NCBI RefSeq assembly: GCF_902859765.1
Contig: NZ_CADIJV010000037.1
Coordinates: 1-46,413, forward strand
Origin: Achromobacter pulmonis
GTDB lineage: Bacteria; Pseudomonadota; Gammaproteobacteria; Burkholderiales; Burkholderiaceae_B
DNA: 46,413 nucleotides
Direction of reading: 5' to 3'
The position numbers and the translations under genes were made by a program. Of this stretch, positions 5,182 through 29,921 are shown in pieces. Under the pieces are notes generated by a model. The model worked only from the letters and a program-made list of their open reading frames with translations. It did not search any database and had not been told where the DNA came from. Positions within the stretch are counted from its first letter, which is position 1; the number at the start of each line of letters is the position of its first letter.

Positions 5182-6210
5182 GTGCGACTGAAAGTAGGAG
5201 AACTGGCCAAGCGCAGCGGACTAACCGTCCGCACGCTGCACCACTATCACGCGATCGGCCTGCTGACACCTTCGGCGCGCGCCGACAACGGCTACCGGCT
5301 CTACGGCCGCGACGACATCGCCCGCCTGCACCAGATCCAGGCATTGCGTCGCTTCGGATTGCCGCTGGCGGAAATCGGCGCCTACCTGGACCAGCCCGGC
5401 ACGCCGCTGGACGAGATCATCGCCAGGCAGATCGCGATGCTCGACCGCCAGATCCAACAGGCCGCCCGGCTGCGCGAACGCCTCGCGCAGTTGCATGGCC
5501 AGTTGGCGACGGGCGCGGAGCCGGAGCTGGCCGATTGGCTCACCACTCTGGAACTGATGAACATGTACGACAAATATTTCTCCCAGGAAGAACTGGCGCG
5601 CCTGCCCATGTATGGCCGTCGCCGCGACGACGATACCGACTGGCTCGCGCTGATTCAGGACGTGCACCGGCAGATGGACAGCGGCGCCCCGCCCGAGGAC
5701 GCACGCTCGCAGGCCCTGGCCCAGCGCTGGATGACGCTGCTGCTGCGCGACACCAACGGCGATCCGCGCCTGCTGGTGAAACTGAACCGGATGCACGAAC
5801 AGGAACCGGCCATGCAGGAACACATCGGCATTTCCCCCGCCATGCGTGACTACGTGGTGCGCGCCTTCTCCGAAAGCAAGCTGCGTCTCTACGAAAAGCA
5901 CCTGACGCCGGACGAGGCGCGCTTCATGCGGGCGCACTATCACGACCGCGTCGGCGAATGGCCGGCCCTGATCGCCCGGGTGCGGGATGCGATCGACGCC
6001 GGCCAGACGCCCGACTCGGCCGCCGGCCGCGAATTGGCACGGCAATGGCTGGAACTGTTTTGCACCTATGCAGGCAAGGACCCCGCCACCCACGCGAAAT
6101 TCCGCCACGCGCTGATGACCGAGCCCGAACTGACCGCCGGCACCTGGGCCGACGACGCCACGCTGGCCTTCATGCGCCAGGCGATGGCCGCGTTGACGAC
6201 GGCGCGCTGA
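5182..6210 (+). CDS. MerR-family regulator with TipAS-like C-terminal domains
   Basis: The chosen GTG start at 5182 has a GGAGG site at 5171-5175 with six bases of spacing; upstream in-frame starts lack one. Residues 1-70 are a MerR winged helix (LKVGELAKRSGLTVRTLHHY, NGYRLYGRDDIARL), followed by a coiled-coil dimerisation helix to about residue 115. The remaining 220 residues carry two related helical units, each opening with a YxxYxSxEE/LTPDEARFM-like motif, resembling the TipAS drug-binding domain of TipA-type regulators. Such proteins bind antibiotics or other hydrophobic ligands and activate efflux or their own gene. The target gene is not obvious here: the next gene downstream is a secreted Ltp-repeat protein almost 400 bases away. 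Confidence 0.88.
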   Translation: MRLKVGELAKRSGLTVRTLHHYHAIGLLTPSARADNGYRLYGRDDIARLHQIQALRRFGLPLAEIGAYLDQPGTPLDEIIARQIAMLDRQIQQAARLRERLAQLHGQLATGAEPELADWLTTLELMNMYDKYFSQEELARLPMYGRRRDDDTDWLALIQDVHRQMDSGAPPEDARSQALAQRWMTLLLRDTNGDPRLLVKLNRMHEQEPAMQEHIGISPAMRDYVVRAFSESKLRLYEKHLTPDEARFMRAHYHDRVGEWPALIARVRDAIDAGQTPDSAAGRELARQWLELFCTYAGKDPATHAKFRHALMTEPELTAGTWADDATLAFMRQAMAALTTAR

Positions 6211-6599: not shown

Positions 6600-6995
6600 A
6601 TGAAAAAGACGATAGCGCGCGCATGCATCTCCCTTATCACTCTTGCAACCCTTGGCACGACTTCCGCCTGGGCTCAAGAACTGACCATTCCTCAAAAGAA
6701 TGCCGTGCGCTCGGCCAAGCAATACCTCAGTTTTGCCGGATTTTCACGCAGTGGATTGATTCAGCAGCTGTCGTCGGACGCGGGTGACGGATACAAGGTT
6801 GCGGACGCCACAATCGCGGTGGACAGCCTCAAGGTGGATTGGAACCAGCAGGCCGCCAGATCCGCACAGAATTATGTGGATATGATGGGTTTTTCGTGCA
6901 AAGGCCTGATGCAGCAGTTGTCGTCGAGCGCGGGCGACAGGTACACCAAGAGCGAAGCAGCCTACGGCGCCAAGGCCGTAGGCGTGTGCCAATAA
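6600..6995 (+). CDS. secreted protein with two Ltp (PF07553-type) repeats
   Basis: A 131-residue protein. Residues 1-25 are a cleavable signal peptide ending SAWAQ. Two copies of the Ltp repeat follow: one at about 32-66 (KNAVRSAKQYLSFAGFSRSG..QQLSSDAGDGY) and one at about 81-120 (QAARSAQNYVDMMGFSCKG..QQLSSSAGDRY), joined by the characteristic AVDSLKVDWN segment. These repeats are known from Gram-positive surface lipoproteins and from the phage TP-J34 lipoprotein Ltp, which blocks DNA entry of other phages. This copy has no lipobox, so it is probably periplasmic or secreted. There is no clear ribosome site before the ATG. The upstream sequence is AT-rich, suggesting transfer. The function in this host is unknown. 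Confidence 0.8.
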   Translation: MKKTIARACISLITLATLGTTSAWAQELTIPQKNAVRSAKQYLSFAGFSRSGLIQQLSSDAGDGYKVADATIAVDSLKVDWNQQAARSAQNYVDMMGFSCKGLMQQLSSSAGDRYTKSEAAYGAKAVGVCQ

Positions 6996-7110: not shown

Positions 7111-8070
7111 TCAAGCGGACCGCACCGCCGGCGGCACATGCGGCAGAAAATCCCCCGCCACCTCAAACGCGCATTCCTCCCGCGCAATATCAATCACCCG
7201 CGACACCACCGGATTGACGATGCTCTTCTTGTGCACCGCGTAGTAATTGATCGTCGGCAGATCCGGCTGCACATCCAGCCGGCACAGCGCCCCGCGCTCG
7301 ACCAGCGGCGCGAAATACGCCCCCGGCAGGTAGCTGATGCCCAGCCCCAGCATGGTCAGCTGCGCCATCATGCCCAGGCTGTTGCAGGTCAGCACCCGCT
7401 TGACCGACAGGCCCTGCTCGGCGAACCAGGCATCGTACAAGTGCGACAGCGCTGAATTGGTCGGCTGCGAAATCACCGGATACGGCGCCAGGTCCTGCGG
7501 CGCCAGCCGCGCCGCAAAGTCGATATCCAGCGACGGGCTGGCCATCCAGACGTTGGTCACCGCGCCCAGGTGGACACAGTCGTACTGGTAGCTCCAGAAC
7601 GGTCCCGGCATGATCGCCAGGTCCAACTGGTCCTGCTCCAGCCGCTCGTACAGCGTGATGCCGCCGTCGATCTCCGGCATAAGCTGCACCTTGGGATAGC
7701 GCAGGCTGATCTGGCTGACCAGCCGCGCCAACCAGGTCATGCCGACCAGCTCGGTCACGCCCAGCCGCACCACGCCCTCGAAACTGGCCGGGTCGGCCAT
7801 GTTCTGCACGATGCGGCTGTTCAGGTCCAGCATCTCGCGCGCCAACTCGAACAGCTTGCGGCCTTGCGCCGTCAGCACCAGCTTCTTGGCGCGGCGCTCG
7901 AACAGCGGCGCGCCGGCAAAGGCCTCCAGCTCGCCCACCCGCTTGGCGACCGCCGACTGGGTGGTGTGCAGCTTGCGCGAGGACGCGCTGAAGCTGCCCA
8001 GTTGCGAGCTCCAGTAGAACGCCTCCAGCTGTTTGAGGGTGTACATCGCGGCGGTGGATGTGAAATGCAT
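7111..8070 (-). CDS. LysR-family transcriptional regulator
   Basis: A 319-residue LysR-type regulator. I chose the start at 8070 because GAGGG lies six bases upstream on the minus strand; the alternative ATG at 8046 has no ribosome site. The N-terminal winged helix reads LKQLEAFYWSSQLGSFSASSRKLHTTQSAVAKRV (positions 10-45), followed by the linker helix and a periplasmic-binding-protein-like effector domain (VRLGVTELVG, the LGISYLPG loop). It is the last gene of a same-strand run that includes an RraA-like aldolase, an aminotransferase and an amino acid ABC transporter, so it probably senses a substrate or intermediate of that pathway and controls the operon, perhaps at the dyad at 13182-13203. 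Confidence 0.9.
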   Translation of the reverse strand: MHFTSTAAMYTLKQLEAFYWSSQLGSFSASSRKLHTTQSAVAKRVGELEAFAGAPLFERRAKKLVLTAQGRKLFELAREMLDLNSRIVQNMADPASFEGVVRLGVTELVGMTWLARLVSQISLRYPKVQLMPEIDGGITLYERLEQDQLDLAIMPGPFWSYQYDCVHLGAVTNVWMASPSLDIDFAARLAPQDLAPYPVISQPTNSALSHLYDAWFAEQGLSVKRVLTCNSLGMMAQLTMLGLGISYLPGAYFAPLVERGALCRLDVQPDLPTINYYAVHKKSIVNPVVSRVIDIAREECAFEVAGDFLPHVPPAVRSA

Positions 8071-8119
8071 GAAGAACCCTCGCATTATCGTCGAGGCGGG
8101 GGCCGGCCGCCCCCTCCCC

Positions 8120-8854
8120 CTACCCCCGCGGATGCAGAATATCCGCCAGGAACCGCTGCGCCCGCGGATGCCGCGGCGCGCTGAAGAAGCGCTCCGGCGT
8201 ATCCACCTCCAGGATTTCGCCCGCATCCATGAACACCACCCGGTCGCACACGTCCCGCGCGAAACCCATCTCGTGCGTCACGCAGACCATGGTCATGCCG
8301 TCCTTGGCCAGGCCCTTCATCACCTGCAGCACCTCGCCCACCATCTCCGGGTCGAGCGCGCTGGTGGGCTCGTCGAACAGCATCACCGGCGGTTGCAGCG
8401 CCAGCGCCCGGGCGATCGCCACGCGCTGCTGCTGGCCGCCCGACAAGGAACCGGGATAGGCGTCGATCTTGTGCTCCAGCCCCACCCGCGCCAGCAACTG
8501 GCGCGCCAGCTCGATGGCCTGCTTGCGCGGCTGCTTGCGGATGTTGACCGGCGCGAACACCACGTTGTCCAGCACGCTCATGTGCGGAAACAGGTTGAAC
8601 TGCTGGAACACGAAACCGATCTTCTGGCGCAGCGCGTTCAGGTTGACGCCCTTGGCGTAGATGTCGGCGTCATCGATCAGGATGCGGCCCTTCTCGATCG
8701 GCTCCAGCCGGTTGATGGTGCGGATCATAGTGGACTTGCCCGAGCCCGACGGCCCGCACACCACCAGCACTTCGCCGCGCGCCACCGACAGGTCCACGTC
8801 CTTCAGGACGTGGTGCTCGCCGTACCATTTATTGACTTTCTCAAGCTTGATCAT
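8120..8854 (-). CDS. polar amino acid ABC transporter ATP-binding protein (GlnQ/GltL type)
   Basis: A 244-residue ABC ATPase, standard length for the PAAT family. Walker A is GPSGSGKST (about 34-42), the Q-loop is in [18 protein letters not shown], the signature is [15 protein letters not shown], Walker B is [14 protein letters not shown], and the H-loop is [18 protein letters not shown]. It powers import through the two permeases encoded just upstream on the same strand; 24 bases separate it from the second permease. It is followed by the LysR regulator after 49 bases. The close match to glutamine/glutamate-type ATPases is typical of the whole family and does not by itself identify the substrate. 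Confidence 0.95.
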
Positions 8855-13553: not shown

Positions 13554-13744
13554 CCTCCTATAGCGAGTGGAGAACCCGCCTCCCCGCTTCCAAACGGGGC
13601 GGGCGGGCACAAGACAGGGTTGGAAGACCGGAGCTATAGGACCCGGCGTGCGCAAGCGCACCCCCGTCCAGGCCCGCCCATAGGGACGTGCGTAGACGCT
13701 GGACATGAAAATGCCGCCTGAGCGGCGGCTGTCCCGCCTATAGC
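13554..13744 (-). ncRNA. C4-like antisense RNA / structured leader with competing pairings
   Basis: Read on the minus strand, the 5' leader carries three related segments. GCTATAGG is at 13744-13737, its complement TCCTATAGC is at 13641-13633, and GCTATAGGA at 13564-13556 overlaps the AGGAGG ribosome site of the small gene. A second complementary pair is GGGCGGGC (13679-13672) with GCCCGCCC (13608-13597). This is the design of phage P1/P7 C4 RNA, which pairs at two places around the target's ribosome site, and of P4 CI RNA, whose seqB pairs with seqA and seqC. The part between is a compact hairpin with GTGCGC/GCGCAC arms. Two further hairpins (13582-13599 and 13748-13765) present GGA in their loops, as CsrA/RsmA sites do. 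Structure prediction was by eye only. Confidence 0.6.
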
Positions 13745-13979: not shown

Positions 13980-13985
13980 TATAAT
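13980..13985 (+). promoter_or_regulatory. consensus -10 box before the tRNA-like element
   Basis: A perfect TATAAT lies about 52 bases upstream of the tRNA-like acceptor stem. No convincing -35 hexamer was found at the standard spacing. A transcript from here would start near 13992 and include the tRNA-like element and the HEPN gene. Confidence 0.5.
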
Positions 13986-14037
13986 CCCAACGCGTTATAG
14001 GTAGTTCACAAACAGCAAGCAGAAGACCCTCAAATAT

Positions 14038-14134
14038 GCACCAGCGGCCGATTGGGTACAGGCGCTCCACTTCAAAATGGTCGCACAGACCATCCTTAGA
14101 TGGAGAGAAGCAGGTTCGACTCCTGCCTGGTGCA
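14038..14134 (+). tRNA. tRNA-like element, serine-type body, UCA-like anticodon, abnormal anticodon arm
   Basis: The 5' GCACCAG pairs perfectly with 3' CTGGTGC (eight pairs if T14037-A14134 is counted). The T arm is perfect (GCAGG-TTCGACT-CCTGC, 14110-14126). The D arm GCC...GGC with G-A at the inner position resembles class II serine tRNAs, as does the following G-CTCCA. The anticodon region is odd. Loop CTTCAAA (anticodon TCA) follows CTCCA, but the matching TGGAG appears only at 14101-14105, after a perfect hairpin ATGGTC/GACCAT (14077-14093). Alternatively CCATC/GATGG forms a long variable arm and the anticodon stem keeps three pairs. Position 8 is C rather than the near-universal T. CCA is not fully encoded. 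It may be a tRNA relic at an island edge, a UGA-reading tRNA, or a tRNA mimic. Confidence 0.5.
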
Positions 14135-14139
14135 CCGCG

Positions 14140-14982
14140 ATGAAATACACTCTGGCTCGAAAGACGTTCAAGCGGCAGTTAGGACAAGCAAACCACTTTC
14201 TGGTCTCCGCACTGGTAGCCCTCGACTGTCTGGACAAGAATCCGCAACATCAAGCTATCGGCCTGCACGCCGCCTGGTCCCCAAAAAACGTATCTCACTC
14301 AATCCAGCGATCTAGGGTTTTTATCTTGCATTCCTTCCTTGGAACTGCAGTTGATGCCTTGGATGTGTATTTTTCCTTGCTTAATCGCAAGCCAGATTAC
14401 CTTCAAGACCCTCTCTTTTCTGGAGAGCTTCAAGCTTGCGGAAGGTCAGTATATAAGAAAGCTAAGGCCTTCTCTGATTGGGTCCCTGCGCCTGACATTG
14501 AAGCGGCTCTAGTAGAAGTGCTGATAACGTGGCGCAACAATGTCATGCACGAGCTCGCCGATAACGTCATATCGGACCGTTCAAAGGACACTCTACAAAG
14601 GCACTCGGAACAAATTGCCAATCTGTATTGCGGTTTGAACCCCATCAATCTCGTCAATAAGGCCGAGTCTGGTGACGATCTCACATTTAAAGAAACTGCC
14701 TCACTGATTGCGGCCGTCCACAACTTCGTTCAAGCAACCGACCACCACATCCTCGGAAAGCTGGACAGGCCATCTTTATATCTGAGTCTCTTACGCGAAT
14801 CACTAGAGCAGAATTCAACGAATCACGGCTTTCGCACGAGGCTTTTTGACACGAAAGCTGCTCGCTGGGGTAGTTTCGTCTCGAATTGGGCTGGCAATAC
14901 GCTTTCTGCTTCTCCACTTGCCACACAAGATCTCGAGGCAATCAAAGATCTGATTCCCACACTGAAGAATGCGCTTGACTAA
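14140..14982 (+). CDS. HEPN-like protein (R-x4-H motif), predicted ribonuclease
   Basis: A 280-residue protein without signal or membrane segments. The segment ALVEVLITWRNNVMHELADN contains R132 and H137 in the R-x4-H arrangement at the start of a helix, the catalytic signature of HEPN ribonucleases used in toxin-antitoxin, abortive infection and tRNA-cleaving systems. Helices on both sides (the 55-80 and 200-240 regions) fit an all-alpha fold. I cannot place it in a named family. The ATG lies five bases after the end of the tRNA-like acceptor stem and has no ribosome site, so its mRNA would be nearly leaderless if the tRNA-like part were trimmed off. Codon use and A+T content differ from the flanking chromosome. 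Function as a defence nuclease is inference. Confidence 0.65.
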   Translation: MKYTLARKTFKRQLGQANHFLVSALVALDCLDKNPQHQAIGLHAAWSPKNVSHSIQRSRVFILHSFLGTAVDALDVYFSLLNRKPDYLQDPLFSGELQACGRSVYKKAKAFSDWVPAPDIEAALVEVLITWRNNVMHELADNVISDRSKDTLQRHSEQIANLYCGLNPINLVNKAESGDDLTFKETASLIAAVHNFVQATDHHILGKLDRPSLYLSLLRESLEQNSTNHGFRTRLFDTKAARWGSFVSNWAGNTLSASPLATQDLEAIKDLIPTLKNALD

Positions 14983-15278: not shown

Positions 15279-16352
15279 ATGGCGACCATTTATTGCGACG
15301 AGGCAGGAAATTCTGGCGAATGGCTTCTGGATCCAGAACAACCTCATTTCGTACTCGTTTCAAATGACTTTGGGGCAGCGGAAGCAGCTTCAATTCTTTC
15401 TCACGTGCAATCGAATCAAGGGGCCGAGCCAAAATTCAAAACGCTGAGAAAGTCGTCGGATGGAATTAATCGCCTCATCCGCTTCTTCTCTGACCCTCGC
15501 CTCGACAACAGTCGATTGGTCATTCACTGCTTCGACAAGAGATTTATGGTTGTAACGAAGATGATTGACCTTGTCCTTGAAACGCTGCAGCACGAAATGG
15601 GACAAGATCTCTATCGAGGTGGCGCCAATCTTGCGATGGCAAATATGATGCACTTCTGCCTTCCAGAATTTTGTGGAAAAGCAGTGACGGAAGAGCTTTT
15701 CAAGACGTTCGTCGATTTGATCAGATCGCGAACGGATGAAGCCGCACAGGCATATTTTCTTGCGGCTCGAGAAGCTGTAGAAGCTTCTGTCGACACCGAT
15801 TTTAGAGGCTTTCTTGCGCCGTTCGCGGACCAAGAGTTATTTCATGCATGGTTTGACGGAATAGGCCCCAATGCACTTGAGCCGGCAATTCCGGCCTTGT
15901 TCAGTCAGATGGGGGTCTGGGGTGCTCGTAAGTCTGAGCGATTTCGCGTTATTCACGACAAATCAAAGCCAATTCTTGCGACCCAAGATCAGTTTGAGAA
16001 AATGATGGCCATGTCGGGGGAGCCGTCAATGCTCATAGGATACGACCGACGCAAGTTTCACTTTCCTCTTCGAGCGACGTCGCTTGAACAGGGCGATTCG
16101 AAGGAATATCCAGCAATTCAGGTTTCCGACCTATGTGCTGGAGCAGTCGCTCGATTCATGAAATATAAAGACGGTGATGTAGCCGACCCATTCACTAACG
16201 CCTTTGTCGAGCTTGTTGGACATCGCTGGGAGTTTGACGGGGTAATGCCTAGCGCCGCCGTGACGCCCAAGGACCTGAAAACAGATTCGGCAGATGTAGG
16301 AAGTCCGATCGACGTCATACTGGATCATCTAGAGCGCCGCAGCCGAAAATAG
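15279..16352 (+). CDS. DUF3800 domain protein
   Basis: A 357-residue protein opening MATIYCDEAGNSG, the D7-E8 motif that begins DUF3800 proteins, with the second conserved acidic block QVSDLCAGAVARF (D284) near the C-terminus. The domain is thought to have an RNase H-like fold with acidic metal-binding residues, so a nuclease activity is plausible but unproven. DUF3800 genes are common in defence islands and near phage-resistance loci. It lies 296 bases downstream of the HEPN gene on the same strand and converges with the helicase gene that follows. Base composition matches the island. Confidence 0.82.
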   Translation: MATIYCDEAGNSGEWLLDPEQPHFVLVSNDFGAAEAASILSHVQSNQGAEPKFKTLRKSSDGINRLIRFFSDPRLDNSRLVIHCFDKRFMVVTKMIDLVLETLQHEMGQDLYRGGANLAMANMMHFCLPEFCGKAVTEELFKTFVDLIRSRTDEAAQAYFLAAREAVEASVDTDFRGFLAPFADQELFHAWFDGIGPNALEPAIPALFSQMGVWGARKSERFRVIHDKSKPILATQDQFEKMMAMSGEPSMLIGYDRRKFHFPLRATSLEQGDSKEYPAIQVSDLCAGAVARFMKYKDGDVADPFTNAFVELVGHRWEFDGVMPSAAVTPKDLKTDSADVGSPIDVILDHLERRSRK

Positions 16353-16565: not shown

Positions 16566-18509
16566 TCATTCGCGAGCCGGCAGCGATGTAGCCAGTGCCT
16601 CCTGCGTGAGAACTGCGCTCCGCGGCAGGATCCCGCTCGCCACGACGTCTTCTACGGTCGTCGCCGGGTCAGCAACAAAGAAGGTTAGTACAAGCCCCCG
16701 CCTGGCGCGAGTGCAGCAAACGTACAGCAGTCTCAGCGTTCGGCTCCAAGTGTTCTCATCGCCTTCCTGAGCTCGCGCACGATCTGCGGCTCGAGCAGCA
16801 GCGCTGGCGAAGACCCGCTCATAGTTGTACGTTCTGTAGTCGTTCTCCTCCTCGTCCATCACCACAACAACGCGATCGAACTGAGCGCCCTTCACGCCAT
16901 GCTGCGTGGCATAGGGGGAGCCCTGCGAGACGTATCGCGCATATGGCCGGAGCTCTTGAGCGGCGCATTGGAAGAACTTGAGCATTGCCGCATCCGAGGA
17001 TCGCCCTTCAGCAGGAGCGGGGGTAGCGACTTCGGCCTCTTGAGCGACTTCACCAACGTCTCCGGCGAACCCAAGCACTCGCTCATAGCGCTCGTCGAAT
17101 TCGAACAGGCCCGAGTCGCGCAGATGGATGGCTATGTCACCGACAGTGGTACCGGGCTCGTCCAGCATGGCGACGAGTCTCATGACAGCTACGTGCAACT
17201 CACGTAGTACGTTCGCCGCGCGGCGACCGTTCAAATTGGCTGGCGCCAGGCGCGGGCTGAACTCCCGGAGCAGGTTCATCGTTCCAAACTCGTCACCGTC
17301 GTTCATCGCTGCAACGATCGGAAGCGCGAAACTAAGAAAGGGGCGAACCGGCCAACCGGTGCCGTCCTGCATTCCCTGCTTCATAGCATCCGACGTCTTG
17401 TCGTTCAGCGCTGAGTAGATGCCGCCGAAGCCAAGCCGATTCGCAGCCATGCGATGCACTATGACAAGAATCTTGACCGCAAGGTCCGGGGTAATCCAAC
17501 CTTCGTCGCTGTCCGCTCCCGCGCTCCATGCTCGGACCCTTGCTAGCGCCTCAGTCCGGTTCAGCGTGTTCGGCAGGACAAACATCCGGGCCGAGCCCTC
17601 CACAAGCTTGAACTCTCCATCGACCCTCTCGTGCAACCCACGGACTTGCTCCATGCCGTCGCCCTGCGCGCGCACGGCGTTAGCGACGTCTAGAATTTGC
17701 TTGGCGCAGCGGAAGTTCTCCGGCTTCATGATGAATCGCCAATGGTCTTCGCGCGGGATGTCCCCCGCCCCTCTCATGAAGATCGACTGCATCGGATCGC
17801 CAAAGAAACCGAGACAGAACTTACCCCGCATCTGGGTTTCAACTTCCTTGAAGGACTTCACTACGCCCGGGAACGTATCCTGACTCTCGTCAATGAACAC
17901 GAACGGGTAGTTCAGCGCCACGACCCGCCGGAACAGTGGGCGGTTTTGTAGCAAAAAGTCCGCGAGCTGGAGGATGTCCTCGTGGCCAAGAATTCCTTTT
18001 GCGTAGTCACTGCCGGCACCGTAATTGAACGCTCTGACGCCGTCCAGAGATTCCAGATGTCGGGCGTAGCGCTCCTGGTCAGCCTTGTTCCTATCTCGCG
18101 TACTTTGCCGAACGCGCTGGCCGTAGTTCTTGAACTCTTCTTCCAACTGAGAAACCCGCCTACGAATTTCGTCCTTCAGCCAGATCTTGATGTCAGCCTG
18201 AAATGTCTTGGTAATGCCCCAGTAAAAGCTATGGATCGTCGAAACATGAACCAGCGGATCAGAGCTGACGTCCGCCAGGATTTCATTGGCTGCTAGATCC
18301 GTATAGGTAATGCAGGCGACCTTCTGCTTCCTCGCCCGCATGCTGGCGCCGTGCGCCGACATCACCCAGTCCAGCGCCTTGATGAGGGAAGTGGTCTTGC
18401 CGGAACCTGCGCCTGCACGAACCACAAACGGCTGCGGGGGAGTTGCGGTAATGCATGCGTAGATCTCTCGGTCGGCATCTGTGTCCGGACTGTCGACTCG
18501 CCTACTCAT
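16566..18509 (-). CDS. UvrD/PcrA-like superfamily I helicase (Gabija GajB-like)
   Basis: A 647-residue helicase with all core motifs: Walker A GAGSGKT (33-39), motif Ia CITYTDLAANEI, motif II DESQD (207-211), motif III GDPMQSIF (237-244), motif IV NFRCAKQIL, motif V VKGAQFDRVVVVMDEEE and motif VI LLYVCCTRARRGLVL. The family unwinds DNA in the 3' to 5' direction. Its ATG overlaps the stop of the OLD nuclease gene by four bases (18506-18509), so the two proteins are made together. OLD nuclease plus UvrD-like helicase is the composition of the Gabija anti-phage system, in which the helicase senses DNA ends or nucleotide depletion and works with the nuclease. At 647 residues it is longer than the classical GajB of about 500. 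Confidence 0.85.
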   Translation of the reverse strand: MSRRVDSPDTDADREIYACITATPPQPFVVRAGAGSGKTTSLIKALDWVMSAHGASMRARKQKVACITYTDLAANEILADVSSDPLVHVSTIHSFYWGITKTFQADIKIWLKDEIRRRVSQLEEEFKNYGQRVRQSTRDRNKADQERYARHLESLDGVRAFNYGAGSDYAKGILGHEDILQLADFLLQNRPLFRRVVALNYPFVFIDESQDTFPGVVKSFKEVETQMRGKFCLGFFGDPMQSIFMRGAGDIPREDHWRFIMKPENFRCAKQILDVANAVRAQGDGMEQVRGLHERVDGEFKLVEGSARMFVLPNTLNRTEALARVRAWSAGADSDEGWITPDLAVKILVIVHRMAANRLGFGGIYSALNDKTSDAMKQGMQDGTGWPVRPFLSFALPIVAAMNDGDEFGTMNLLREFSPRLAPANLNGRRAANVLRELHVAVMRLVAMLDEPGTTVGDIAIHLRDSGLFEFDERYERVLGFAGDVGEVAQEAEVATPAPAEGRSSDAAMLKFFQCAAQELRPYARYVSQGSPYATQHGVKGAQFDRVVVVMDEEENDYRTYNYERVFASAAARAADRARAQEGDENTWSRTLRLLYVCCTRARRGLVLTFFVADPATTVEDVVASGILPRSAVLTQEALATSLPARE

Positions 18510-20911
18510 GACGTCTGCTCCGCGCCTGCAATAACCGCGACAGAAGCAGCCGTAGCCGGCTCAATCGTCGCGAGCTCGTTAGCGATGGCCGCGTCCGAAT
18601 CAACTTCGTGGGCCGCCTTCGCTTCAAGCCAGGCCAACCCTTCAGCGATGTACGCGGGAACCCTCCATCCACTGACGGGTCCACTTGCCAGGACCTCTAG
18701 AGCGAAGCGGGTCTTGTCGAAGTTCTTTCCCACCACCCTGTCATGCAACTTCTCAGCCAGTTCCTGGGGGGTACTGGGCGCGCGGTGCAGCTTAAGACCA
18801 ATCGCCCGATTGGCCTCAGCTTGGCACCATTCTGCGTTCTCCAGACCAAAAGCCTCCTCAAGCGTGCGACCGCATAGTTGCGCTGTCGCCGAACCAACTG
18901 TCACGGGGACCTTTGTCTGATAGGCAACTCGGACCGCTGCGCTGGAACCTTCGGCCAACGACAACGTTTTCTGTTCCGGCGTCACTTCCCAGAGCTCTGC
19001 CACCGAACGCTTCTTTGGAATCCAACTGATGAGGGTTTGGTTGGACGTGACAGCCCCTTCCACGTGCGCATGGCAGGTGCTTCCGCGCTTCTTTGACTTC
19101 TTCTTACCACTAGGGTGTGTCGCGTCGTCTTCTTCCACCTCGAAGGGTTTCAGATCGTCGTCTTCGTCGGCATCTTCGACAGCAACCGCTGCGTGCGCAG
19201 CGGCCTTCTCGTCAACCGACTTGACCGTCACACTGTCAAGGTCCGTAATGACTAGTGTAGTGAGCCCGATAAAGGTAATGAGATCTTGAAAACGATGGGC
19301 GAACGCTCCACCAACTTCAAGAATGGTCAGAGCAGAGGAACGAAGGCGCTTAGCTGCCGATTCGATCATCGCTGGCAGGAGCAGGCGCTCGACGTTGCCC
19401 TCCACCAAAATGACCGCGTCGGAGAAGAAGAGGTCACAATGCGTCAACTTCAAATATCGCTGAAGGAACTCGCGCGCGGACGCCTCAGCCTCGCCCGTCT
19501 TGAAGCGGGACAGATTCCGCACGTCCGTTTGATGGTCTAGTTGGTCGCTGACGCGACGGAAGTACCGGATGGGAGAAAACCCGCGCTCATAGAGAATGTG
19601 TGGGGAATGCGTGGTGATAACGAGTTGCGTGTGAAAAAACGTCGCGTAGTCGTTGGTATCCTCAAGCAGACGCAAAACGTTCCTAATGAACACTTGCTGG
19701 ATCTGCGCGTGCAGATGAGCCTCAGGCTCTTCAATGAAGATCAAGTGAAGCGGCGCCCGCTTGTCTTCCTCAGCTTTCCACTGCTCGTGTAAGTCAAGCA
19801 GTTCAACCACCATGTAGACCAGATTCTTGAATCCCAGGCCGTTGTAGCTGTCGGGCAGTTGAGCGGCGGCTGCGCCCGGAATCACGTAGTGGACCTTGGC
19901 GTCTTGTCCCAGGACGGTGGTCGGGTCCAAGGCCGCCCGAATGACAATTTCGGGATTGTTCACGCCTGGATAGCCCAGCTTGCCCAGGCGCTTTAGGGTG
20001 TCACTGAAGACTTCCTCCAGGTGGAAGTTCAGTTCTTTCTCTGAGGTATCGAGCGCTTTGAGAGCCGCATGGTCGTCGCCACGCTTCTCCAAGTTGCGAT
20101 GGTAAAAGCGGCTGAGGCGCCGAGAAAGGCTCTCGGCGCGATCAGAGCTAGCAGCGTCCGGGTCATCAAGGTGCCGCTGCGCGCGCAAGAAGTCCACCCT
20201 CACCAGCGACTTGAGAATGTTCGCGCCACCCGGCTCCTTGCCTAGCGGCTGCGGCTCGTAGCCTGCCGTCGCCCGATAGTCGACAAAGGCCCTCTCATCA
20301 AGCACATAGTAGCGGAAGGTATATTCCTTGCTCAGCTCCTTGGTTAGGTACTTCGTCAAGCTTTCTGGCCAGGGCCTGTACTCGCTAGCGTCGGCTTTCA
20401 CCTCAACATTATTTCCCCCATCCACCTCGGCAGCAGTCTCATTGGCTGCTTTGCGCTGTGCCGCCAACGCGTTCGCCACGTCGTTGGCTTTCTTATGCAG
20501 ATCATGGAACCGCTGGACGAGTTCGGAGGCATCGCGAGGCTCAAACGACACGCGAATCCCGACGCACTTTCCCTCCCACTCAGTGCTCGGGAGCAGCGAT
20601 ATTGCGGTCGCAAGGTCATCTTCACCGACACGGAACCAAAGATCTAAGAGGATGGATGGCAATCTCTTGGCCGCTTCCTCATCTGCCGGAGCCGATCTTC
20701 CCACGGCGTCGATTTCGGCCCACAGCGCTGCATTGAAGTCAAAGAGTTCGAACTTCCTTGCATCGCCCCGGAGCATGGAATATAGCCCTTGGACTGCAGA
20801 CGTCTTCCCGCTGTTGTTGGCGCCAACAAAGATAGATATCTCATTATCGAGCTCGATGACGACGTCGCGGAGTCGGCGGTAGTTCTGCAGTCGATAAGCC
20901 TGCAACTTCAT
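18506..20911 (-). CDS. OLD-family ATPase/TOPRIM nuclease (Gabija GajA-like)
   Basis: An 801-residue protein starting at 20911 with GAGGGGG four bases upstream. The N-terminal ABC-type ATPase half has Walker A GANNSGKT (30-37), Walker B with IFIEEPEAHLH (391-401) and the switch His in ITTHSPHIL (435). The C-terminal TOPRIM nuclease half has the catalytic Glu in ILVEGNVERL (E504) and LVITDLDS (D557, D559). An acidic then lysine-rich insert lies at about 578-610. Class 2 OLD proteins paired with a UvrD-like helicase form Gabija, where GajA nicks DNA when NTPs fall during infection. It is over 200 residues longer than the type GajA because of a longer ATPase insert and C-terminal tail. Confidence 0.87.
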   Translation of the reverse strand: MKLQAYRLQNYRRLRDVVIELDNEISIFVGANNSGKTSAVQGLYSMLRGDARKFELFDFNAALWAEIDAVGRSAPADEEAAKRLPSILLDLWFRVGEDDLATAISLLPSTEWEGKCVGIRVSFEPRDASELVQRFHDLHKKANDVANALAAQRKAANETAAEVDGGNNVEVKADASEYRPWPESLTKYLTKELSKEYTFRYYVLDERAFVDYRATAGYEPQPLGKEPGGANILKSLVRVDFLRAQRHLDDPDAASSDRAESLSRRLSRFYHRNLEKRGDDHAALKALDTSEKELNFHLEEVFSDTLKRLGKLGYPGVNNPEIVIRAALDPTTVLGQDAKVHYVIPGAAAAQLPDSYNGLGFKNLVYMVVELLDLHEQWKAEEDKRAPLHLIFIEEPEAHLHAQIQQVFIRNVLRLLEDTNDYATFFHTQLVITTHSPHILYERGFSPIRYFRRVSDQLDHQTDVRNLSRFKTGEAEASAREFLQRYLKLTHCDLFFSDAVILVEGNVERLLLPAMIESAAKRLRSSALTILEVGGAFAHRFQDLITFIGLTTLVITDLDSVTVKSVDEKAAAHAAVAVEDADEDDDLKPFEVEEDDATHPSGKKKSKKRGSTCHAHVEGAVTSNQTLISWIPKKRSVAELWEVTPEQKTLSLAEGSSAAVRVAYQTKVPVTVGSATAQLCGRTLEEAFGLENAEWCQAEANRAIGLKLHRAPSTPQELAEKLHDRVVGKNFDKTRFALEVLASGPVSGWRVPAYIAEGLAWLEAKAAHEVDSDAAIANELATIEPATAASVAVIAGAEQTS

Positions 20912-27846: not shown

Positions 27847-28536
27847 ATGGACACTCCTTTCAAGAATCGAAAAGAGGCTGGCGTGCTGCTGGCCAGGCGG
27901 CTGATGGGATATGCGGGGCGCACCGACGTCATCGTGCTGGCGCTGCCCCGTGGGGGAGTGCCGGTGGGTTTCCAGATTGCCGCCGCGCTGAATGTTCCGC
28001 TGGACGTTGTGCTGGTGCGCAAGCTCGGGATGCCGGGGCATGCCGAATGCGCCATCGGCGCGATCAGCAACGATCAGTCTGAACTGCAGACCGAGGTCGT
28101 CGCGGCGTACGGGATTCCCACGAAAGAGATCGAGGCAATCGCGTCGCGCGAGCGAAGGGAGCTGATGCGCCGTGACGCGTTGTACCGGGCGGGGCGGCCA
28201 CCGCTGCGTCTGTGCGGAAAAACGGTGATTCTCGTGGATGACGGCCTGGCGACCGGTTCGACGATGCGTGTGGCGGTGCGGACCGTGCGGATGGCCAAGC
28301 CCGCAAAGATTGTGGTCGCCGTTCCGGTTTCCGCCGCGCAGCCGCACGAGGAACTGGCGCTTGAGGCTGACGAAATGATCTGCTTGAGGACGCCCGCGCC
28401 TTTTTACGGCGTGGGGCAGTGGTACCTGGACTTTGAGCAGACCACGGACGACGAGGTAATCAGTCTCTTGCAAGAAGCCGCGCGCACCCATCCGCTGTCC
28501 GCATGGATAGCATCGCCCGCGCCGAGTCACGGTTGA
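27847..28536 (+). CDS. phosphoribosyltransferase-family protein
   Basis: A 229-residue type I phosphoribosyltransferase fold. The start at 27847 has GGAGG seven bases upstream; an earlier in-frame start at 27739 lacks a site. The PRPP-binding loop is VILVDDGLATGSTM (about 131-144), and the N-terminal VIVLALPRGGVPVGFQIA matches the stand-alone group often found beside erythromycin-esterase genes. The nucleobase substrate is unknown for this group. It overlaps the next gene's likely start (TGATG at 28534-28538), so they are coupled. Confidence 0.9.
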   Translation: MDTPFKNRKEAGVLLARRLMGYAGRTDVIVLALPRGGVPVGFQIAAALNVPLDVVLVRKLGMPGHAECAIGAISNDQSELQTEVVAAYGIPTKEIEAIASRERRELMRRDALYRAGRPPLRLCGKTVILVDDGLATGSTMRVAVRTVRMAKPAKIVVAVPVSAAQPHEELALEADEMICLRTPAPFYGVGQWYLDFEQTTDDEVISLLQEAARTHPLSAWIASPAPSHG

Positions 28537-29921
28537 TGGTTCTTGGCCCAAGGCAGCTTATGGAAATGACCACTGATGCGCATCTGCCCTCGCCTGCCCG
28601 GGCGATTGCCGCGTCCGCGCTTGCGCTGACGGGAAGCTCGCGCGACTACGACTCCGTTCTGGAGAAGATCGGCGACGCGCGCTTTGTGCTGATCGGCGAA
28701 GCCAGTCACGGAACGCACGAGTTCTATGAAGAACGCGCGCGGCTGACGCAACGGCTGATCGCGGAAAAGCGCTTCTCTGCCGTAGCGGTCGAGGCCGATT
28801 GGCCGGATGCGTATCGGGTCAATCGATACGTTCGCGGTCAGGGAGAAGACACCACCGGCGATCAGGCCTTGGCGAGTTTCAAGCGCTTTCCGACCTGGAT
28901 GTGGCGCAATACCCCGGTGGTTCGTTTCATCGAGTGGCTGCGTGACTACAACGACTCGGTGTCACCCCTGACCGAGCAGGTTGGATTCTATGGCCTGGAC
29001 CTGTACAGCCTGTTTACGTCGATCGCGGAAGTGCTGCGGTATCTCGATCATGTCGACCCCGAATCGGCCCGCCATGCGCGTGAGCGCTACGCTTGCTTTG
29101 ATCATTTCGATCGCAACAGCGAACGCTATGGATATTTGACGGGCCATGGTTTGTCGGCCTCATGCCAGGGCGCCGTCATCGCGCAGATGCGTGAACTGAA
29201 CACGCGTGCCGCGCAATATCTGAAAAGCGATGGATACGAGTCAAGCGATGCGCTGTTCTGTGCGCAGCAAAATGCGCGCTTGATCACGAATGCCGAAGCG
29301 TACTACCGCACCATGTTCGATCGGCGCGTGTCTTCCTGGAACCTGCGGGACCGCCATATGGCACAGACCCTGGATGCCCTCGCCCGCCATCTGCCACGGA
29401 CGGGGGACGGCGGGCCGGCCAAGATTGTCGTCTGGGAACACAATTCGCATGTGGGCGATGCGCGCGCGACGGACGTCGGACAGGCGGGAGAGTGGACGGT
29501 AGGCCAATTGGCGCGCGAGCGTTACGGCGCCGAGACTTTCCTGGTGGGACTGACCACCTATCAGGGAAGCGTTACCGCCGCGGACGACTGGGATTCGCCG
29601 GCAGAGCGCAAGCGGGTGCTGCCGGCCCTGCCTGGCAGCTACGAGGCAGCGTTGCATGAGACGGGCATCGACCGATTCGTCGTGTCGTTCAAGGGCGACC
29701 GGGGCCTGACGCACGCGCTGTCCCGGCGTCGGCTGGAACGTGCCATCGGCGTCATCTATCGGCCGCAGACAGAACGGCAAAGCCATTATTTCCATGCTTG
29801 CCTACCGCAACAATTCGACTGCGTCCTCCATTTCGACCAGACCCGCGCCGTCGAGCCGCTGGAGTGGGGGGACACTTGGACGCTGGGAGAGGCGCCAGAG
29901 ACTTTCCCGCGCGGGCTGTAG
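28536..29921 (+). CDS. erythromycin-esterase family protein
   Basis: About 461 residues from the ATG that overlaps the preceding stop; ATGs at 28503 and 28560 are alternatives in the same frame and the true start is uncertain. Family motifs include VLIGEASHGTHEFYEERARL (catalytic His/Glu region), AVEADWPDAYRVNRYV, GFYGLDLYSL and VWEHNSHVGDAR. EreA/EreB open macrolide lactones, but most chromosomal members are of unknown activity and lie in stress clusters beside phosphoribosyltransferases, as here. I would not predict macrolide resistance from this gene alone. Confidence 0.9.
   Translation: MVLGPRQLMEMTTDAHLPSPARAIAASALALTGSSRDYDSVLEKIGDARFVLIGEASHGTHEFYEERARLTQRLIAEKRFSAVAVEADWPDAYRVNRYVRGQGEDTTGDQALASFKRFPTWMWRNTPVVRFIEWLRDYNDSVSPLTEQVGFYGLDLYSLFTSIAEVLRYLDHVDPESARHARERYACFDHFDRNSERYGYLTGHGLSASCQGAVIAQMRELNTRAAQYLKSDGYESSDALFCAQQNARLITNAEAYYRTMFDRRVSSWNLRDRHMAQTLDALARHLPRTGDGGPAKIVVWEHNSHVGDARATDVGQAGEWTVGQLARERYGAETFLVGLTTYQGSVTAADDWDSPAERKRVLPALPGSYEAALHETGIDRFVVSFKGDRGLTHALSRRRLERAIGVIYRPQTERQSHYFHACLPQQFDCVLHFDQTRAVEPLEWGDTWTLGEAPETFPRGL

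Follow-up and report, generated by a model that had tools for sequence, protein, structure and literature searches.

In Achromobacter pulmonis contig NZ_CADIJV010000037.1 (assembly GCF_902859765.1), a gene for a HEPN ribonuclease-like protein is directly preceded by a tRNA-like RNA whose anticodon loop is enlarged. We analysed the whole 46,413-nucleotide (nt) stretch of this contig, hereafter the window, together with relatives of the pair from other sources. Comparison of the relatives found, at the level of sequence, showed that the tRNA-like RNA and the HEPN gene are constantly paired and inherited together, and that the fold and the loop of the RNA are evidently under selection. The pair resembles an RNA-controlled toxin or virus-defence module of a kind so far unrecognised. 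We favour, at roughly even odds (a probability of about 0.5), the reading that it is an RNA-regulated HEPN toxin or abortive-infection module in which the tRNA mimic would restrain the enzyme. The features of the module are as follows.

14038..14136 (+): tRNA-like RNA, found by ARAGORN, Rfam, a cloverleaf parser and alignment; the same design is present in 22/22 loci
14070..14100 (+): enlarged "anticodon" loop of 31 nt (not 7), in the order CUUCAAA, hairpin (14077-14093), CCUUAGA
14140..14982 (+): HEPN ribonuclease-like protein of 280 amino acids with the motif RN-x3-H (R132, N133, H137), from motif alignment and a predicted all-alpha model

The tRNA-like RNA and the HEPN gene family

The element in the window has an acceptor stem of 7 base pairs (bp; 14038-14044 with 14127-14133), a D arm, a perfect T arm (14110-14126) and a 5 bp "anticodon" stem (14065-14069 with 14101-14105), and ends in a discriminator A at 14134 followed by CC. 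The enlarged loop holds a 6 bp hairpin (14077-14093) and the conserved words CUUYA and U-N-A-N-A. The Rfam tRNA model matches positions 14038-14134 at 45.1 bits (cut-off 29), ARAGORN labels 14038-14136 "tRNA-Phe", and RNA folding gave a z score of -2.95 (2/200 dinucleotide shuffles reached an equally good fold). Because of the size of its loop, the element is presumably no working tRNA-Phe and would not be able to decode in the manner of a tRNA. In the same genome, a search with the DNA found no second copy.

Exactly five bases separate the discriminator A from the ATG of the HEPN gene (14140), the spacing given in an earlier note on this DNA, which had also proposed a HEPN R-x4-H motif. The residues R132, N133 and H137 form that motif (as RN-x3-H) and are invariant in 5/5 aligned rows and in 12/12 rows of an overlapping wider set (the window is in both). 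The window protein thus carries the superfamily motif R-x4-6-H with a polar residue after the arginine, and its predicted model is all-helical with the motif at a helix end, as expected of the HEPN fold. The GC content of the gene is 48.9%, compared with 63.3% for the whole window, which suggests that the gene was acquired.

Database searches gave little for this protein family. Two of ten family members match Pfam HEPN_RiboL-PSP (PF18735) at E values up to 1 (best 5.4e-4), and the window protein is without any Pfam match. At the same threshold none of the ten, window protein included, matches Pfam Abi_2 or any of the 5027 models of PADLOC 2.0. Foldseek searches against the PDB and viral models returned nothing at E ≤ 0.001, a PDB sequence search returned four matches with E values of 0.19 and worse to proteins that are designed by name or apparently so, and the best NCBIfam match (E of 0.069) was among unrelated names. 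No match was found in phage records for any of the three family proteins tried, nor in plasmid records searched with the L006 protein.

Besides the window, the non-redundant set of loci of this HEPN family has 21 members, which lie on chromosomes, plasmids and viral contigs and reach down to approximately 20% protein identity. A tRNA-like RNA with an enlarged anticodon loop stands directly upstream of the HEPN gene in 22/22 loci. Six genome searches gave a match in 3/268, 2/369, 4/398, 4/300, 3/240 and 1/145 genomes; these sets share genomes, and the genome of the window or the search centre is part of every count. Plasmid records, viral contigs and GTDB contigs were the other sources of relatives (some searches of the latter two found none). 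Duplicate or near-identical loci (L021, L022, L028, L031-L033, L073 and further records of places already counted) were dropped to reach 22, while the pairs L003/L019 and L013/L027 were both retained although close. The earlier note had proposed asking whether such an element always precedes the family, and had named homologues mostly lacking it as grounds for giving up the idea; this is not what we found, one tandem gene excepted. That gene belongs to genome G865, where two diverged family HEPN genes stand in tandem after one tRNA-like RNA (L014/L015). On a Pseudoalteromonas plasmid (L010, 3561-4470), the tRNA-like RNA is kept while the HEPN reading frame is interrupted, with no annotation at this place in the table used; L010 is counted for its RNA only. 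At five loci of the related PF18735 HEPN family (three above the family cut-off and two below), no tRNA-like RNA was found.

The cloverleaf parser scored at least 37 points in 18/22 loci and in 0/2200 dinucleotide shuffles (highest shuffle 36.5). At 32 points or more it accepted all 22 loci, compared with 63/2200 shuffles and 6/178 stretches upstream of other open reading frames (at most 35). Loci L013, L017, L027 and L030 score 32 to 35.5, values that the best shuffles also reach, and were accepted because they align with the other loci. The acceptor stem was read as 6 bp in L004, L014 and L017. ARAGORN reports seven of the 22 elements and the Rfam tRNA model passes 14.

The loci fall into three groups (A, B and C) by loop type, described below. 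A covariance model made only from the group A sequences recovered all eight group B and C loci at 28.9 to 48 bits (E values of 4.5e-11 to 1.7e-5 in 293,669 bases); it also matches ordinary tRNAs. Across 20 genomes (11 with a known family HEPN gene), this model gave five matches above 60 bits, all five before a HEPN gene. The remaining matches listed (at least 39.2 bits) were either 74-77 nt long and scored at most 58.7 bits, or were the HEPN-linked elements of genomes G865 and G1388. In 200 family genomes, with 20 candidates per genome scored, the only match at E ≤ 1e-13 was the window. This search for orphan RNAs used the group A model alone, and genome G038, which has the element, possibly lies outside the scored 200-genome set, so orphans are possible.

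Conservation of the fold, the loop and the expression signals

RNAalifold, run on an unfitted MAFFT alignment of the 22 sequences, predicts the cloverleaf plus the extra hairpin, with two-sided changes in 20/21 pairs. In the named structure, 86.4% of alignment cells pair (62.6% when shuffled), covariation is 0.650 (0.238 when shuffled, with 0/500 shuffles as high), and 25/27 pairs have two-sided changes (shuffled mean 19.4). When the structure was slid by one to three columns, covariation fell to 0.114-0.196; the shuffles ignore the relatedness of the sequences while the slides preserve it. These counts are from alignment A9, several rows of which are out of register in the acceptor stem (79.3% paired), which works against the claim of a fold. 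Alignment A10, in which some acceptor stems are out of register, was not used for counts. The best-kept helix is the stem of the enlarged loop, which is paired in 97.3% of alignment cells. This pairing (14065-14069/14101-14105 in the window) rules out a tRNA with anticodon AAA, and the ARAGORN "Phe AAA" label arises from forcing the element into the usual tRNA shape.

The anticodon loop is 19-32 nt long in 22/22 loci, instead of the canonical 7 nt. Type A (14 loci) has CUUYA, then a hairpin, then U-N-A-N-A; type B (6 loci) has CGAUUA (CUAUAA in L036) and then U-N-A-A-A; type C (2 loci) has AACUAA and then U-N-A-A-A. The 3' side carries an invariant U-N-A-N-A, its letters U60, A62 and A64 (alignment numbering) being identical in 22/22 loci. 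Most group A loops clearly contain the inner hairpin, whereas its presence in groups B and C is doubtful. Outside the loop, the canonical T-loop UUCRA and the elbow G19 of tRNAs are kept: G18 of the alignment (tRNA G19), U80, C81 and A83 are present in 22/22 loci and U79 in 21/22. The 5' word of the loop holds UCA, UUA or CUA across the 22 loci, each the reverse complement of a stop codon; this was noticed by eye and post hoc, and may be chance.

Loop type follows the protein. The type A loci make up one side of a branch with 100/100 support in a protein tree of 20 rows (L010 and L018 were left out), and the three loop labels need two changes on this tree, the minimum possible and a number that 0/200 shuffles matched. 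Paired stems that drift while fixed loop letters track the protein are what would be expected of a contact between RNA and protein.

The RNA and the HEPN gene are very probably on one transcript, as the earlier note had supposed, given their adjacency in 22/22 loci, the short gap between them and the placement of promoter-like sites. Such sites peak where the -10 box ends 6 nt before the first base of the element (mean score 4.18; the other values of the 40-distance scan are at most 3.44). Within 4-8 nt, the mean promoter score is 5.11, compared with 3.90 for shuffles (highest shuffle mean 4.43). At a score cut of 5.0, which was picked after the scores were seen, 13/22 loci have a promoter-like site aimed at the first base of the element, and shuffles have 2.4 on average and at most 7 (500 rounds). 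The window is not one of the 13; its candidate site is as follows.

13980..13985 (+): TATAAT, a weak candidate -10 box of the shared transcript, seen by eye, with no good -35 and not the best site of the scan

An NCCA end is encoded in 11/22 elements. Start codons were assigned clearly in 19 loci (L010, L018 and L036 are outside this set), where they lie 0-19 nt after the NCCA position. A Shine-Dalgarno (SD)-like word occurs in 2/19 of these, by a word list that omits AAAGGG (L014) and GAGGA adjoining the ATG (L035). No listed word lies 4-16 nt before the ATG in the window, which agrees with the observation in the earlier note that a ribosome site is missing. In 11/19 loci there is no in-frame ATG, GTG or TTG inside the tRNA-like element, and the protein must therefore start behind it. 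Loci L018 (2121-2211, -) and L036 (2265-2355, -) have AAGG and an in-frame ATG within the enlarged loop, and there HEPN translation probably starts inside the loop. The idea that tRNA-type processing leaves a nearly leaderless mRNA thus fits the scarcity of SD-like words and probably does not extend to these two loci.

Gene neighbourhood and mobility

Neighbouring genes were scanned, in part, at 11/22 loci, and defence-type genes were found near six of these. Two neighbours of the module in the window are as follows.

15279-16352 (+): DUF3800 gene, GC content 49.9%, approximately 300 bases behind the HEPN gene
16566-20911 (-): Gabija pair (GajB, GajA), near the module

Elsewhere, L020 has an OLD-like ATPase-TOPRIM gene and a UvrD helicase, a pair that we read as Gabija-like, and L025 has a NACHT protein with an HsdR-like part. 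SIR2_2 and DUF4365 genes are found at L009, and an AAA_13 ATPase, of a family that we take to be that of the PrrC/RloC-like ATPases, at L008. On a Sinorhizobium plasmid (L005), the module is followed by an ApeA-type HEPN gene (7408-8802) with no significant BLASTP similarity to the module HEPN. L007 and L026 have phage integrases, L027 has a primase and a helicase, and nothing was recognised at L023 or L029. No constant protein partner emerged among the scanned neighbourhoods, and both DUF3800 and Gabija were ruled out as obligate partners, as neighbours differ between the loci inspected.

In Azoarcus sp. L1K30 (L023), the RNA and the gene lie between two 62 nt repeats that are 87% identical (5793-5854 and 6832-6893) and that we take to be attC-like, with cores judged by eye. 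There the RNA and the gene alone would travel as one integron-like cassette. A cassette is also likely at L009 (genome G632), which has an attC-like end and an integrase fragment. At L007 (4791-6091), a phage integrase gene adjoins a 77 nt match to the tRNA model, which suggests that this copy, in genome G038, is carried by an island that inserted itself at a tRNA gene.

The window also contains a C4 antisense RNA (Rfam RF01695, 60.7 bits) at 13595-13685 (-), approximately 350 bases upstream of the module, and a gene for an erythromycin esterase family protein (Pfam PF05139) at 28503-29921 (+).

Competing explanations and comparison with known systems

Under the favoured reading, the tRNA-like RNA and the HEPN gene would share a transcript on which the RNA is made first and in excess, then trimmed and kept stable as tRNAs are. 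The RNA would bind the HEPN dimer through its conserved loop, leaving the active site occupied or misplaced. Infection that upsets tRNA or RNA metabolism, through nucleases, transcription shut-off or tRNA turnover, would cause loss of the RNA, and the freed enzyme would cut cellular RNA, perhaps tRNA anticodon loops, so that translation stops. More tentatively, the module may be a form of RNA-guarded immunity, in which a tRNA mimic with a decoy anticodon loop both restrains the HEPN enzyme and senses infection, and the enzyme is set free when phages attack or steal the tRNA machinery of the host (tRNA nucleases, ligases, modification, processing); docking would then take place at two words of the loop, U-N-A-N-A on the 3' side and UCA, UUA or CUA on the 5' side.

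Several observations weigh against restraint of the enzyme by the RNA. The same conservation would be expected of a cis-acting leader, or of an RNA that switches the enzyme on, and joint inheritance alone can make loop type track protein clade. At nine of the 22 loci, among them the window, no promoter-like site stands at the preferred distance, although cassettes would need no promoter of their own (L023 is integron-like, and L006, L016 and L017 may be). In G865, the second of the two tandem HEPN genes is without a separate RNA, and 5/11 scanned neighbourhoods have no clear defence gene. The tandem repeats usual in type III antitoxins are absent, each of 28 sources having a single match beside a HEPN gene. 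The family is rare, each search finding it in 0.5-1.3% of genomes, and homologues were collected with this family as seed, so relatives without the RNA may exist beyond those found.

It is rather unlikely that the tRNA-like fold is a cis-acting leader that only controls HEPN translation on its own mRNA, hiding the start codon, with translation switched by a cut at the tRNA 3' end (by RNase Z or exonucleases) or by the HEPN protein when it binds. The start codon 0-19 nt after the NCCA position, the SD-like word in only 2/19 loci and the in-loop AAGG and ATG of L018 and L036 would suit a leader, and a phage protein bound to the 5' untranslated region of AbiD1 activates translation of AbiD1. However, a leader need not keep G18, U80, C81 and A83 in 22/22 loci and NCCA in 11/22, nor have a loop type that tracks the protein clade, and the gap to the start codon varies. 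We consider it unlikely that the RNA is instead a guard or bait, a sensor copying a phage-targeted tRNA (cut, modified or captured) that switches the HEPN enzyme on when it is itself cut, left unprocessed or bound. This idea draws on the retained upper half of the tRNA, on a loop enlarged where the anticodon nucleases PrrC and RloC act, and on the defence-type neighbours, the AAA_13 gene among them. Nonetheless there is no link to one tRNA, as acceptor stems vary and the best canonical matches are mixed (Arg, Gly, Lys, Thr, Val), and sequence does not separate the idea from the antitoxin model. A specific tRNA identity of the mimic was also sought in its own right, and the canonical tRNA matches gave no consistent answer.

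Origin as a mobility remnant or decoy, in which a HEPN-carrying island took a tRNA gene or a copy of one as its attachment site, is very improbable. There are integrase genes or fragments near L007, L009 and L026, but the loop is 19-32 nt in 22/22 loci, always beside the same gene family, divergence in the stems is compensated, and in L023 the element lies inside the cassette. An attachment-site or tRNA-remnant origin is therefore contradicted by linkage to the HEPN family. The likelihood that the fold is chance or a misreading is negligible, mainly because of the relatives, with the element in 22/22 loci. ARAGORN misses most elements and four loci score within the shuffle range, but no shuffle reaches the 37 points that 18 loci reach, 14 loci pass the Rfam cut-off, and the covariation contradicts chance.

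To return to restraint by a tRNA mimic, the module would be placed among RNA-controlled ribonuclease modules, with the mimic as the RNA part, and would by analogy act like a type III toxin-antitoxin or AbiF-type system. It stands beside these and is distinct from them because it has no repeated RNA unit and no Abi_2 match. Type III systems (ToxIN and kin) are alike in having the RNA part first and the RNase behind, with direct control of the protein by the RNA presumed here, and an RNA gene lies directly upstream of the toxin-like gene in 22/22 loci, as in that type. The ToxN fold of classic type III systems includes a beta-sheet, whereas the HEPN protein here is predicted to be all-helical. 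According to PMC12373285, the usual type III antitoxin RNA consists of tandem repeats that the toxin cleaves. The same source describes AbiF of Clostridioides difficile, a HEPN-like protein of the Abi_2 type that is neutralised by a non-coding RNA (RCd22) encoded just upstream. AbiF and the module are alike in this layout of a HEPN-type gene with an adjoining upstream RNA; the AbiF RNA is described there as two motifs of 33 and 35 nt, unlike the tRNA cloverleaf here, and AbiF proteins are Abi_2 while none of ten members here match Abi_2. A table of PMC3710099 annotates RiboL-PSP HEPN with the words "distantly related AbiF and AbiD". The statement in the earlier note that the arrangement matches no known system thus holds for the tRNA shape and not for the layout, for which AbiF is a close precedent.

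In HEPN-MNT (HepT-MntA) systems the partner is a nucleotidyltransferase protein, whereas the constant partner here is an RNA. The anticodon nucleases PrrC and RloC share with the module the HEPN active-site motif and a tRNA theme; RloC, however, includes an ATPase domain and PrrC is associated with a restriction system, while the HEPN protein here is stand-alone. We know of no tRNA-like RNA for PrrC or RloC. Among the matches listed in the open-access literature, titles and abstract openings gave no tRNA-like RNA beside a HEPN gene (preprints and most subscription papers were outside the scope of this search).

tRNAs are recognised targets of bacterial immunity, and to our knowledge no system carries its own copy of a tRNA as a control part. 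Annotation hides such RNAs, as the seven elements that ARAGORN reports come under ordinary or undefined tRNA names and Rfam passes 14 as tRNA. If the favoured reading is true, the pair would be a new RNA family with strong covariation and a compact (~1 kb) mobile module, and would offer a route to how a tRNA-shaped RNA restrains a HEPN nuclease.
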